Assembly (NCBI GenBank): GCA_009692425.1
Contig: SHZF01000005.1
Location: forward strand, 1 to 64,000
DNA: 64,000 bases
Source of the DNA: Myxococcales bacterium
GTDB taxonomy: Bacteria; Myxococcota_A; UBA9042
Direction: 5' to 3'
In this document: positions 31,347-36,131 of the stretch, piece after piece
Layout of the letters: every line of letters starts with the position of its first letter
How positions within the stretch are numbered: position 1 is the first letter of the stretch
Program-made: the position numbers and the translations under genes
The notes under the pieces: generated by a model
What the model was told of the DNA's origin: nothing
Database searches by the model: none
What the model saw: only the letters and a program-made list of their open reading frames with translations

Positions 31347-32948
31347 ATGCAAGACCTTTGGACACAGGCGATGGGACAACTGCGCACCGCAACTCGGCGC
31401 GCAGCAGCCGATCCGTGGCTCGAACGCATCGAACTCATTGAGCTCATCGACTCAACCGACGTCGAAGTGCGCCTCGCAGTGCCCGACCCGCACTTCCGCG
31501 ACTTCGTCGAAGCGCACTACCTCGACGACATCCGCGCGTGCCTGCAAGCACTCACCGCGCGGCCGGTCGCCGTTGCGCTCATTGTACGGCCACCGACCGG
31601 TTTCGCTCCGCCGGACCTGGCGACCACCGACCCGTTCGCGACCGCGTTGCGGGGGTTGCCGCCAGACACGACGTCTCTACCAGAGGCGATGTTTGCGCCG
31701 GAAGGGATGTCTTCGGCAGAAGCGAGGTCATCCGCAGAAGCGATGTCTTCGGCGGAAACGACGTCATCGATGCGGTCGGGGACTGCGCCCGCGTGGGGCA
31801 CTGCCCTGGGCGCGCGCTCGCACCGGCGTGGGGCGCGGCAGCCCGCCCTGCACGGACTCGACCTGCCCGCCCAGCCGGAGCCGGCCAGCCGCCCGCACGA
31901 CCCGACGCCGGATCCCTTCGACGGGCTCGCCCCGCGCCAGACGTTCGACCAGTTCATCATCGGCCAGTCGAATCAACTCGCCGCCACGGCGGCCCAGGCG
32001 GTCGCCGACGCGCCCGGCAAGGTGTTCAATCCGTTGTTCATCTATGGCGGCGTCGGCATCGGCAAGACGCACCTGCTGCACGCTATCGGCAACGCGGCCC
32101 GGTTGCGCGACCCGAACCTGCGCGTGCGCTACGTGCCGACCGCGACGTTCATCGACGACACCTTCACCGCGTGGCGCATCAAGGACCCGGCGACGAAGGC
32201 CGACGTGCGCAACCATTACCGCAGCGGAGTCGACCTGCTGCTCGTCGATGACATCCAATTCCTGCAGCAGCGTGAGCGCTTCCAGGAAGAATTCTTCCAC
32301 GTATTCAACGCGCTATATCATGCGGGCCGTCAAATTGTCATCACGTGTGACCGGTTCCCTTCGGAACTCCAGGACTTCCACGATCGGCTGCGTTCGCGCT
32401 TCGAATGCGGCCTCGTCGCCGAACTGACTCCACCGGAGCGCGACCTGCGTGTGGCCATCCTGCGCCGCAAGTCTATCGACATGGGCCTGCTGCTGGCGCC
32501 CGACGTCATCTACTACCTTGCGGACCACCTGCGGAACAACGTGCGCGAACTCGAGGGCGCCCTGCTCAAGCTCGCCGCCCACGCGCGCCTCGGCAACCGG
32601 GCGCCCGACCTCGCATTCGCGCGCAGCGTGCTGGGGCCGACCCTCGAATTGCCGTCGCGCAACGTGACAGCCGAGGTCATCCAGCGCGTGACGGCCCAGC
32701 ACTACGGACTCAAGCTCACCGACCTTAAGGGCGACAAGCGCCACCGCAGTGTCGTCGTGCCGCGCATGGTGGCGGTGTACCTGACGCGCAAGCACACGGG
32801 CGCGAGCTATCCGGAGATCGGACGGGCCTTTGGCGGGCGCGACCACTCGACGATCATCCATGCGTTCCACCGCGTCGAATGGCTGCTGCAGACCGACCTT
32901 GCCGTGCAGACGGCGGCGGCGGCAATCGAGACCTTGTTGGGCAAGTAG
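31347..32948 (+). CDS. dnaA: Chromosomal replication initiator DnaA
   Basis: 533 residues. Domain I is about 1-80. The linker (domain II, about 85-195) is long and low-complexity and holds a hexapeptide repeat (SSAEA). Domain III carries FIIGQSNQLA, Walker A GGVGIGKT (234-241), Walker B LLLVDDIQFL and FNALYHAGRQIVITCDRFP. Domain IV ends with the DnaA-box-binding signature: GDKRHRSVVVPRMVAVYLTRKHTGASYPEIGRAFGGRDHSTIIHA, split here by family convention into the helix-turn-helix and the RDHST loop. It binds ATP and oriC to open the origin. The first position of the dnaA-dnaN-recF order and the DnaA-box cluster just downstream mark this as the origin region. Confidence 0.97.
   Translation: MQDLWTQAMGQLRTATRRAAADPWLERIELIELIDSTDVEVRLAVPDPHFRDFVEAHYLDDIRACLQALTARPVAVALIVRPPTGFAPPDLATTDPFATALRGLPPDTTSLPEAMFAPEGMSSAEARSSAEAMSSAETTSSMRSGTAPAWGTALGARSHRRGARQPALHGLDLPAQPEPASRPHDPTPDPFDGLAPRQTFDQFIIGQSNQLAATAAQAVADAPGKVFNPLFIYGGVGIGKTHLLHAIGNAARLRDPNLRVRYVPTATFIDDTFTAWRIKDPATKADVRNHYRSGVDLLLVDDIQFLQQRERFQEEFFHVFNALYHAGRQIVITCDRFPSELQDFHDRLRSRFECGLVAELTPPERDLRVAILRRKSIDMGLLLAPDVIYYLADHLRNNVRELEGALLKLAAHARLGNRAPDLAFARSVLGPTLELPSRNVTAEVIQRVTAQHYGLKLTDLKGDKRHRSVVVPRMVAVYLTRKHTGASYPEIGRAFGGRDHSTIIHAFHRVEWLLQTDLAVQTAAAAIETLLGK
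31689..31775 (+). repeat. 18-nt tandem repeat in the DnaA linker
   Basis: About four and a half 18-nt units of the type atgtcttcggcagaagcg (31707-31724, 31725-31742, 31743-31760, with a diverged unit at 31689-31706 and a partial one at the end). They encode the hexapeptide (M/R)SSAEA in domain II, where length changes are tolerated. Confidence 0.85.
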
Positions 32949-32960
32949 CCGACGTTGCCC

Positions 32961-32984
32961 GCCCCGATCCGCCGCCTTCGGCGC
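32961..32984 (+). repeat. Dispersed repeat end (half copy E)
   Basis: The 24-nt segment beginning gccccgatccgccgcc and ending ttcggcgc is identical to 62000-62023, one end of repeat copy C. The other end is not recognised here. It contains the mini-palindrome CGCC-TT-CGGCG. Confidence 0.6.
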
Positions 32985-33192
32985 GTTGCTCGCATTGCCG
33001 TGCGCGTTGCGACGCATCGTGGACGATGCACGACGGGGTTCGGCAAGCCACGCAACCATGTGGCGACTCAAGGTTTTATTTCCCCAACTTCAGGTCTTCG
33101 CCGCACCCGCTCCGTCGGATGCCGCCGCCTGTCGCATCGACCGGCCCGGCCCTGTGGACGGGTTGTGGAATGTCTGGGGACAAGTGCGCCCC

Positions 33193-33201
33193 TTCTCCAC
33201 A
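33193..33201 (+). promoter_or_regulatory. Consensus DnaA box
   Basis: ttctccaca matches the TTNTCCACA consensus at all nine positions. It lies in the middle of the candidate origin and is flanked on both sides by near-matches in either orientation. Confidence 0.7.
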
Positions 33202-33512
33202 GGGTCGAGTCGCCCTGGGGACGATAAGGAGCCAGTCCCCACCGATCTACCGGTTTCCTCCACAGGCCGATCGCCCAGAACGCTTCGATCTTATTAAGAT
33301 CGTTCACTTGCCCACAGGCGTCCACAGCCCCCGCGATTCCGCTCTCTATAGGATCAGATCCAAATACCCAAGTGGCTGGCATCCGGCCCAGGGTCCACCA
33401 CCGGCTTCCATCCCCGACCCTCTTCCCACTGCGCCCTCGCCCTGCTACAAGTTCGCCCCCGACTGACCGTTGCGCCGTGCCTGTTTCCGGCCCCGGTCCG
33501 AGGAAACGCGCC

Positions 33513-34643
33513 ATGAAAGTCCGCATCGACAAGGCCGCACTCACCGTACCGCTCTATCGTGCCCAGGGCGTGGTCGATCGCAAGGCGACCACGAACGTCA
33601 TTGCGTGCGTGCACGTGGCCGCCGGCGACGACGGGTTGGTGCTGTCGGCGACCGACTACGACGTGACCATGACCGCATCGGTGGCGGCCGACGTGCTGGA
33701 GCCGGGGGCCGTGCTCGTCAACGGTCGCGCGCTTTTCGAGATCGTGCGCGCCTTGCCTGAAGGCAGCATGGTCGAACTGACCGGCGAACCGAATCACCGC
33801 CTCCGCATCGTCGCGGGCCGCTCGACCTACCACCTCAACGGGCTGGACCCGGCGGAGTTTCCAGGCGGTTCCATCGAAGCCCAGCCTCGCCTCGGCCTGT
33901 ATTGCGACAAGGGCCACATCGACGCGATGCTGCGGCGCACCCTGTTCTCCGTCTCGCAGGACGACACACGGCCCGCGCTCAACGGTGTGTTGCTCGAGAT
34001 CGAGCCCGTCGCCGACGGTCAGGTGCTCATCCGCATGGTGTCGACGGACGGTCATCGCCTGTCGAAGTCGGAGCGTGTAGTCGCTTGTTCGAGCTACGAC
34101 GGGGCGAGCCACCGCTGCATCGTGCACCGCCGCGGCGCGACCGAGCTTCAGCGCATCTTGGAGGGTTCGGACCCATCGGTGCACATCGGGTTCGCGGGCC
34201 GCAATGTCGTCTTTGCATCCGACAAGGCGCGCCTGCAGGTCAAGCAGATCGACGAGACCTTCCCCGACTACGGGCGCGTGATTCCCGAGAAAGGCGACAT
34301 CTCAGTGTCGCTGCCGCTGCCCGAACTGGTCGGCGCGATCCGGCGCGTGGGGGCGGTGTCGGCGTCGAAGGATGCCACGTTGCGCTTTGAACTCACCGAC
34401 GGCCGCATCGTGCTTGAGATGAACCACCAGGACCTCGGCGAAGCGCATGAGGAGATCGAGCCGGCAAGCTACCGCGGCGGCCACCAGAAGGTCGGCTTCA
34501 ACCCGCGGTACCTGCTCGACGTGTGCCAGGTGCTCGCGACCGACAACGTCAGCCTTGAACTGTCGGACCAGTTCTCGCCGTGCCTGGTGCACAGCGAAGA
34601 GGACCCAGGTTCGGTGTTCGTGATCATGCCGATGCGCCTGTAG
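33513..34643 (+). CDS. dnaN: DNA polymerase III sliding clamp subunit beta
   Basis: 376 residues from ATG 33513 with gaggaaa upstream; the 47-residue 5' extension in frame overlaps the origin and is not coding. Beta-clamp features run through three repeated domains: MKVRIDKAALT, LVLSATDYDVTMTAS, RLRIVAGRSTYHLNGLDPAEFP, the second domain LLEIEPV with MVSTDGHRLSK, and the C-terminal QFSPCLVHSEEDPGSVFVIMPMRL. The last, hydrophobic MPMRL motif is the conserved clamp C-terminus. It tethers the replicative polymerase to DNA. Confidence 0.97.
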   Translation: MKVRIDKAALTVPLYRAQGVVDRKATTNVIACVHVAAGDDGLVLSATDYDVTMTASVAADVLEPGAVLVNGRALFEIVRALPEGSMVELTGEPNHRLRIVAGRSTYHLNGLDPAEFPGGSIEAQPRLGLYCDKGHIDAMLRRTLFSVSQDDTRPALNGVLLEIEPVADGQVLIRMVSTDGHRLSKSERVVACSSYDGASHRCIVHRRGATELQRILEGSDPSVHIGFAGRNVVFASDKARLQVKQIDETFPDYGRVIPEKGDISVSLPLPELVGAIRRVGAVSASKDATLRFELTDGRIVLEMNHQDLGEAHEEIEPASYRGGHQKVGFNPRYLLDVCQVLATDNVSLELSDQFSPCLVHSEEDPGSVFVIMPMRL

Positions 34644-34703: not shown

Positions 34704-36131
34704 GTGCACATCGAGCGCCTGTATGCCGCACGCTTCCGCAACCTCGGCGACGGGGCGGGTCGTGGCGTGGGGTCGGGAGTTGACGACGCGCGGGGAGTAG
34801 GCGACGGGTCGGGTGCTGGCGACGGGTCGGGTGCTGGCGACGGGTCGGGTGCTGGCGACGGGTCGGGTGCTGGCGACGGGTCGGGTCGTGGCTTCGTCTG
34901 GTTCCCGCATCGCCACTTCAACATCCTTGTCGGCCCCAACGGCGCGGGCAAGACGAACGTGCTGGAAGCCGTCGCGGTACTGGCCGGGCTGCGCAGCTTT
35001 CGGACGGCGCGCCTGCACGAGTGTGTCGCGTTTGGAGACCCTGCGGGAAATACCAGTGCGCGCGCGGTGTTGGGCGCCCGTGTCGTGCGGCACGGCGTAG
35101 CGACCGACCTGGGTGTCGAGGTGGGCGCGGGCACGCGGCGGCTTTTCCTCGACGGCAAGCCAGCGCCCAGCGCGGCCCAATTCCTCGGGCGCTTGGTGGC
35201 CGTGCCGTTTGCGCCCGACGACTTGCGACTGCCCACCGATGCCCCCGACGCGCGGCGGCGCTGGCTCGACCGCGCCGCCTTTCACCACGAGCCGGCCCAC
35301 CTCGACGCCGTGCGCGCGTTCGAGCGGGCCCTGCTGAGCCGCAACGCCTTGCTCAAGGCAGCGCAGCGCGCGCCGGCCGATGCCGAGACCCTCGACGCCT
35401 TCGACGCCGTGTTGGCGCGCAGTGGGGCCCAGGTCGCCGTGCGGCGGGCGGCCGTGCTCGACCGCCTGCGTCCCCTGCTGCAAGAGGTGTTCGGGCGCAT
35501 CGCCGCAAGCGGGCTCGCCATCGATGTGCAGTTGGAGGTGCGCGGTTGCGATCCGTTGGCCTATGCCGACGTGGCGAGCGCGACCGCGGCGTTGGCCGGT
35601 TCGTTGCGGCTGCGGCGCGACCGCGACCTCCAGCAGGGCTCGACGACGCGCGGCCCGCACCGGGACGACGTGCGTTGGACGCTGCAGGGTCGCCCCGTCG
35701 CCAGCCACGCCAGCCAGGGGCAGTGCCGTGCGCTCGTGCTGGCGCTCAAGATTGCCGAACTCCGCAGCCTCGAAGTGGCACTCGGCGAGGCGCCCGTGCT
35801 GCTGCTCGACGACGTCAGTTCCGAACTCGACGCCGCGCGCAACCGAGCGCTCATGAGCTACCTCGACGAACTTGGTGGCCAGGTCGTCGTTTCGACCTCA
35901 CAGCCCACCAGTCTGGCCATCCTGGCGCCGCAGCAGGTGTTCCACATCGCGGCGGGCCACTTGACGGCGGGCGCGGTGGCGGGGCGCCCTGCTGGAGCCG
36001 AGCCTGCTCCCATCGCCGAGCCTGCTCCCATCGTCCAGCCTGCGGCCCTTGGCGACCCTGCCGCCCTGGCCCAGTCTGCAGCCTATGCCGCGCCAGCACC
36101 CGGGCCAGTTGTGCCCGTGGAGGAGCTATGA
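34704..36131 (+). CDS. recF: DNA recombination/repair protein RecF with repeat insertions
   Basis: 475 residues, about 100 longer than usual, from a GTG at 34704. An N-terminal MHIERLYAARFRNL is followed by an unusual Gly/Asp/Ser stretch (about 15-65) that displaces Walker A GPNGAGKT to 77-84 (near 30-37 in typical RecF). Later motifs are normal: the signature SHASQGQCRALVLALKIAEL and Walker B VLLLDDVSSELD. The C-terminal 55 residues form a second repetitive tail (EPAPIA type). RecF loads RecA at gaps. The stop overlaps the murA start by 4 nt (ATGA). Confidence 0.93.
   Translation: MHIERLYAARFRNLGDGAGRGVGSGVDDARGVGDGSGAGDGSGAGDGSGAGDGSGAGDGSGRGFVWFPHRHFNILVGPNGAGKTNVLEAVAVLAGLRSFRTARLHECVAFGDPAGNTSARAVLGARVVRHGVATDLGVEVGAGTRRLFLDGKPAPSAAQFLGRLVAVPFAPDDLRLPTDAPDARRRWLDRAAFHHEPAHLDAVRAFERALLSRNALLKAAQRAPADAETLDAFDAVLARSGAQVAVRRAAVLDRLRPLLQEVFGRIAASGLAIDVQLEVRGCDPLAYADVASATAALAGSLRLRRDRDLQQGSTTRGPHRDDVRWTLQGRPVASHASQGQCRALVLALKIAELRSLEVALGEAPVLLLDDVSSELDAARNRALMSYLDELGGQVVVSTSQPTSLAILAPQQVFHIAAGHLTAGAVAGRPAGAEPAPIAEPAPIVQPAALGDPAALAQSAAYAAPAPGPVVPVEEL
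34800..34889 (+). repeat. 18-nt tandem repeat in RecF N-terminal region
   Basis: Four perfect 18-nt copies of ggcgacgggtcgggtgct and a fifth that ends with cgt, at 34800-34889. They encode GDGSGA repeats and have inserted between the first beta-strand and Walker A of RecF. Confidence 0.92.
36000..36089 (+). repeat. 18-nt tandem repeat in RecF C-terminal tail
   Basis: Five diverging 18-nt units, the first two differing at only one or two bases (gagcctgctcccatcgcc), encode EPAPIA, EPAPIV, QPAALG, DPAALA and QSAAYA. This is an older, decayed array than the one near the N-terminus. Confidence 0.8.

Follow-up and report, generated by a model that had tools for sequence, protein, structure and literature searches.

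A helically phased cluster of DnaA boxes between dnaA and dnaN is the likely chromosomal origin of an uncultured Myxococcota-like bacterium

Does the gap between dnaA and dnaN in this genome hold the origin of chromosome replication? We analyzed a window of 64,000 nucleotides, bases 1 to 64000 of a 145,620-bp contig in a draft assembly of 4.94 Mb (137 contigs, 96% complete, 70% GC). In the window, dnaA, dnaN, and recF are consecutive and all on the plus strand, and the dnaA-dnaN gap is 564 bp long (32949 to 33512). A cognate DnaA is present, as its box-binding domain IV was found (PF08299, 4.2e-26, Pfam). An earlier note had proposed a candidate origin in this gap. We found that this proposal is supported and that the comparative evidence (layout, linkage to dnaN, and GC skew in two relatives) decides in its favor. 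We found no RNA families or tRNAs within the window. The recF frame starts with a low-complexity run of GDGSGA-type repeats (window 34750 to 34895), and in five of the six relatives with a recF match the alignment begins past this run, at residue 63 to 67. The features of the locus are as follows, with offsets given from the core box.

31347 to 32948, plus strand: dnaA, replication initiator, 533 aa (Pfam PF11638, DnaA_N; PF00308, AAA+; PF08299, domain IV; all above cut-off)
33153 to 33158, minus strand: putative DnaA-box core TCCACA, offset -106 (sequence, 10.5-bp phase)
33164 to 33169, minus strand: putative DnaA-box core TCCACA, offset -95 (sequence, position used in relatives)
33175 to 33180, minus strand: weak DnaA-box core TCCCCA (TGGGGA on the plus strand), offset -84 (strict box there in relatives)
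33193 to 33201, plus strand: full DnaA box TTCTCCACA (core 33196 to 33201), offset -63 (sequence)
33216 to 33221, minus strand: weak DnaA-box core TCCCCA (TGGGGA on the plus strand), offset -43 (strict box there in relatives)
33236 to 33241, plus strand: weak DnaA-box core TCCCCA, offset -23 (strict box there in relatives)
33259 to 33264, plus strand: core DnaA box TCCACA, conserved, offset 0
33269 to 33273, plus strand: GATCG motif, 4 bases past the core box (found in 18 of 19 elements; G002 lacks it)
33286 to 33302, no strand: 17-bp palindrome CGATCTTATTAAGATCG in the AT-rich spacer, not conserved in relatives
33311 to 33316, plus strand: weak DnaA-box core CCCACA, offset +52 (sequence)
33321 to 33326, plus strand: partner DnaA box TCCACA, offset +62 (strict box at +61 to +63 in 15 of the 18 elements counted)
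33327 to 33372, no strand: possible unwinding side, where the DNA towards dnaN is less stable (stability profile, trio scan)
33513 to 34643, plus strand: dnaN, sliding clamp (Pfam PF00712, PF02767, PF02768)
34704 to 36131, plus strand: recF, after dnaN (Pfam PF02463)

Counted by their core six-mer, nine DnaA-box-like sites lie between 33153 and 33326 in both orientations (five TCCACA and four weaker TCCCCA or CCCACA sites), which agrees with the five or more near-boxes within 175 bp that the earlier note had described. The perfect TTNTCCACA box that it had reported is also there: TTCTCCACA, at 33193 to 33201 on the plus strand, is the sole full TTNTCCACA box of the gap. The orientation of this box is opposite to that of the box that most relatives have at the same offset. 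A tenth core (TCCCCA) lies in the gap to the left of the nine-site cluster. The cluster had been placed directly after dnaA; it is indeed in the gap that follows this gene, but its first boxes begin about 200 bp beyond the dnaA stop. When we allowed two mismatches to TTATCCACA, we found just four sites in the dnaA-dnaN gap. The gap upstream of dnaA, which had been credited with one weak box, has two sites at two mismatches (30971 and 31092).

TCCACA is rare in this 70% GC genome, and the cluster thus stands well above chance. There are 54 TCCACA on the 145,620-bp contig, and finding 5 in 564 bp has a Poisson P of 1.8e-6 (4.6e-4 after 258 windows). Likewise, TCCACAG occurs 436 times in the assembly and 4 times in the 564 bp (P = 2.4e-7; 2e-3 after 8765 windows). 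We scanned the rest of the contig and found no 565-bp stretch with more than two TCCACA. Perfect E. coli-type boxes (TTATCCACA or TTTTCCACA) number 10 in the assembly and 0 in the window. The sole TTATCCACA of the assembly was set aside; it lies on a 9.2-kb contig, and no cluster was evident in the last 5.2 kb, the part of that contig that was read. One frame on this contig resembles, by eye, an isoleucyl-tRNA synthetase.

We recognized the same element, a core TCCACA-N4-GATCG with a partner box about 62 bp on, in 19 of the 22 genomes of the family, the window's included. Seventeen of these elements have the strict core inside a box cluster, and two were added by hand: that of G002, where GATCG is missing and the spacing of the boxes gave the placement, and that of G001, whose core is TCCCCA-N4-GATCG. 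The core box is a strict TCCACA in 18 of 19 elements. A near-constant AA was seen about ten bases beyond GATCG. The pattern TCCACA-N4-GATCG-N25..55-TCCACA was found in 15 of the 52 genomes searched, at one place in each (as two overlapping matches in G003 and G010) and once in the window's assembly. All of these matches are in the family (15 of 22 genomes), and there were none in 30 genomes from other families of the class.

The earlier note had named a denser box cluster outside the window as a finding that would speak against the proposal. With a model built from the 18 relatives alone, the window site was the best in the 4.94-Mb assembly, at 52.1 bits (E = 1.9e-13), versus 15.1 bits for the next non-overlapping place, and no denser cluster was found. 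With a sequence model of all 19 elements, each member's element ranks top in its genome, but by construction. No convincing element was found in G012, G015, or G017, where the model search gave nothing above 17 bits. G012 and G015 had no dnaA or dnaN matches and hence were not placed. A looser pattern gave only scattered matches across seven family genomes.

Outside the family, three of the 30 genomes searched with the all-19 model gave matches (E <= 0.01). The strongest is in G039, about 0.3 kb past dnaA and within a box cluster. At this locus (L214, contig C661), two boxes 9 bp apart in the cluster are followed by CTACTT, which is trio-like. The other two matches were not accepted: the one in G038 lies about 0.8 to 0.9 kb upstream of a dnaA match and has a single TCCACA, and the one in G034 is not in a comparable cluster. 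At least three TCCACA within 1200 bp downstream of dnaA were seen at only 2 of 12 loci from other families (L019 and L021; L029 was excluded from this count because its contig ends there). Thus, the layout is not class-wide.

The boxes are also in helical phase. The window's nine sites are phased at about 10.5 bp (R = 0.935; jitter control P = 7e-5). For eight genera with one genome each, R was 0.80, a value that 0 of 100,000 jitters reached, and the seven genera other than the window's have a mean phase of -0.77 bp, in agreement with the -0.74 bp of the window. These tests were done without G001, whose element with its TCCCCA core was added later. Eight of the nine window sites, all except that at -106, fall within 1 bp of positions used by at least two other genomes, with 38 of 241 positions being used in this sense. 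Since the weak sites occupy positions at which relatives have strict boxes, we take the four TCCCCA and CCCACA sites to be real DnaA boxes and candidate binding sites for DnaA.

The side at which the DNA would open is less plain. An AT-rich patch had been reported and is present, but it is modest; no 60-bp stretch of it exceeds 50% AT, and 0.5% of the 60-mers on the contig attain this value. The stability profile has two dips, at about +28 to +44 and +92 to +104, seen alike in the window and in the family average, and these are modest in a 70% GC genome. A basal unwinding system has at least three DnaA-trios within about 16 bp after a box. We found no run of three [CT]T[AT] after the core box or the +62 box of the window, and the loose NTN run of three that starts at +29 is more than 16 bp from the core box. 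Among the relatives, G006 and G011 have runs of three to four trios after the +62 box, by both [CT]T[AT] and CTN. G008 has such a run by CTN only, and G013 has one by [CT]T[AT] only and farther off. In the family as a whole, trio-like triplets are enriched after the +62 box (summed run length of 27 versus 20.2 in shuffled sequences, P = 0.007). The element may work like a basal unwinding system, yet we do not file it as a member. With GC-rich boxes and a weak AT patch, unwinding is less obvious here than in AT-rich origins.

The window's unwinding element is not sharply defined, as might be expected if the cluster were one part of a two-part origin and a second group of boxes, or the unwinding element, lay elsewhere; bipartite origins are known (PMC5124646). 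However, the gap upstream of dnaA, with its two weak sites only, offers little for a second half, and no other cluster on the contig reaches three TCCACA per 565 bp. We consider a bipartite origin improbable.

The spacer also contains the palindrome GATCTTATTAAGATC, which had been given as 15 bp (33287 to 33301). It is real and extends to 17 bp, at 33286 to 33302. Were it the functional heart of the locus, it might be a regulator's operator or a cruciform that aids opening. A perfect inverted repeat of this length is unusual in a 36-bp spacer (P = 0.0017 by dinucleotide shuffles), and the family has a slight excess of inverted repeats in the spacer (P = 0.003; 0.023 without the window). However, the palindrome sequence is conserved in none of the 18 other elements, a control stretch at -160 to -124 is enriched to a similar degree (P = 0.01; 0.007 when the window is omitted), and the contig has other palindromes with arms of at least 8. 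We rejected conservation of a hairpin in the spacer because of the excess in the control stretch. The data thus do not bear out a special role, which we regard as very improbable; the palindrome is probably incidental or lineage specific and without a general function.

The position of the element relative to dnaA and dnaN bears most directly on what it does. It lies beside dnaA and/or dnaN in 17 of the 19 family genomes that have it and between both in the window. In eight genomes (G000, G001, G002, G003, G004, G006, G008, and G011) it follows dnaA, and in seven of these it is followed in turn by dnaN on that contig, whereas the contig of G001 stops before any dnaN. In eight others it lies upstream of dnaN and dnaA has moved away: G005, G009, G013, G016, and G020 (g6) and G007, G010, and G019 (g8). 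We found no dnaN in the stretch fetched around dnaA in these eight genomes and at most one TCCACA within 1000 bp after dnaA, so no cluster followed the moved dnaA. The separation is less secure for G010, where only 1.4 kb of sequence follows dnaA.

dnaA and the element are on one contig in G013 (about 81 kb apart) and in G005 (about 80 kb apart). On both contigs (G013:C37 and G005:C2), dnaA is upstream of the element. The matching distances suggest one old rearrangement in genus g6. In a tree of DnaA plus DnaN, g6 and g8 are not sisters: g6 joins G001 (95% support), and g8 joins G003 (98%). Because each has a linked genome as its neighbor in the tree, two departures of dnaA are the simplest account. 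G018 has the element upstream of dnaN and a dnaA that is split across two contig ends, with no dnaN after its C-terminal piece in the 8.8 kb fetched (L054, L055, and L065); this is possibly a third separation or a binning artifact. In G014 and G021, none of the dnaA or dnaN matches shares a contig with the element. The element sits in a third gene neighborhood (G014:C4:91841-91908, L115 and L163; G021:C338:72873-72940, L113 and L164), which looks common to the two genomes.

The earlier note had put forward GC skew as a check. A whole-chromosome curve is impossible for a genome in 137 contigs, and on the window's own contig the check lent no support: the cumulative skew is almost flat, with its minimum at the far end (block-shuffle P = 0.80), and the skew of the window taken by itself is flat as well. 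In contrast, the skew minimum lies 3.9 kb from the element in G005 (P = 0.020) and 3.8 kb from it in G013 (P = 0.003), with dnaA about 80 kb away in each. The minimum is 15 kb from the element in G009 (P = 0.20) and 35 kb from it in G004 (P = 0.30), where the contrast between the left and right sides of the element ranks second among 88. Skew therefore backs the origin reading on two of five contigs and is silent or contrary on three. Strand-corrected third-position skew on three contigs was no clearer, and gene-orientation skew has its minimum near the element only in G013.

The element stays when dnaA moves or sits apart from both genes, which argues for a cis-acting origin and not a dnaA regulatory region. 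In known bacteria, dnaA promoters are also regulated by DnaA boxes. That the boxes titrate DnaA or autoregulate dnaA or dnaN transcription while replication starts elsewhere is nonetheless highly improbable: although the cluster is 5' of dnaN and could act on that gene in most genomes, it is 3' of dnaA in the window, none followed the moved dnaA, the element is away from both genes in G014 and G021 and marks the skew minimum in G005 and G013, and the window's assembly has no second comparable cluster. Most simply, the cluster is read as the origin itself rather than as a piece of the dnaA gene.

The analysis shows a set of boxes that are phased, conserved, present at one place in the assembly, and independent of dnaA. 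From this we infer, with a probability of about 93%, that the oriC of this uncultured Myxococcota-like bacterium extends from 33153 to about 33372, with a box ladder, a rigid core, and an opening towards dnaN or in the spacer. According to this model, DnaA molecules would occupy a row of boxes that share one helical face, and the low-consensus TCCCCA and CCCACA sites would belong to this ladder. The rigid core TCCACA-N4-GATCG and the partner box about 62 bp downstream would orient the DnaA assembly, and a DnaA filament would grow from these two oriented boxes towards dnaN. The filament would then open the less stable DNA past the partner box (33327 to 33372), the AT-rich spacer between the boxes, or both, and the helicase would be loaded at the opened stretch. 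A further idea, which we hold only tentatively and think rather doubtful, is that the element is a portable, self-contained origin cassette, with a DNA methyltransferase or some second factor recognizing its GATCG joint; since it would not need dnaA in cis, it would have parted from dnaA at least twice independently and from dnaN once, with its geometry kept.

Few descriptions exist of replication origins in uncultured Myxococcota, and our literature search found no paper that treats Myxococcota, oriC, and DnaA together with the replication origin. GC skew contributes little in this case. With the element, the origin can be located by sequence in most draft genomes of the family. Because dnaA has moved away more than once, the family offers a natural experiment in which an origin can be told apart from a dnaA regulatory region. 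The conserved GATCG joint, for its part, is a defined starting point for finding out what else recognizes the origin.

We compared the locus with known systems as described in excerpts of the papers cited. The oriC of Bdellovibrio bacteriovorus likewise occupies the gap between dnaA and dnaN, and its eight DnaA-binding sites are close to an unwinding region that is moderately AT-rich; experiments there demonstrated both the binding of DnaA and the unwinding, and four DnaA-trios adjoin its box 1 (PMC5124646). The window, known here from sequence, differs in having no clear trios and GC-shifted boxes (TCCACAGG or TCCCCA). In Bacillus subtilis, helical phasing of the upstream boxes in incC is known experimentally (PMC6669920). 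Phased upstream boxes, and oriented boxes adjoining the unwinding site, are common ground between this system and our element (PMC6669920, PMC8287927); the DnaA-trios that define the B. subtilis basal unwinding system are missing in the window and present in G006, G008, and G011. For Sorangium cellulosum, a myxobacterium, the excerpted review gives a suggested oriC beside dnaN and nearly 2 Mbp from dnaA and states that the usual GC-skew inversion is missing (PMC8538405). The suggested origin thus goes with dnaN and away from dnaA, as in the g6 and g8 relatives. In contrast, dnaA is still adjacent in the window, and we see the separation within one family that has a conserved element. Cyanobacterial origins (Synechococcus) likewise have oriC near dnaN rather than dnaA; these are from a different phylum in which dependence on dnaA was lost in some lineages (PMC2275245, PMC7198777), and there is no sign of such a loss here. 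As far as these excerpts go, the origin is ordinary in kind, and the separation of origin and dnaA has precedents in Sorangium and cyanobacteria. This analysis adds the box ladder and the GATCG joint, and it follows dnaA as it repeatedly loses its linkage to the element among members of a single family.
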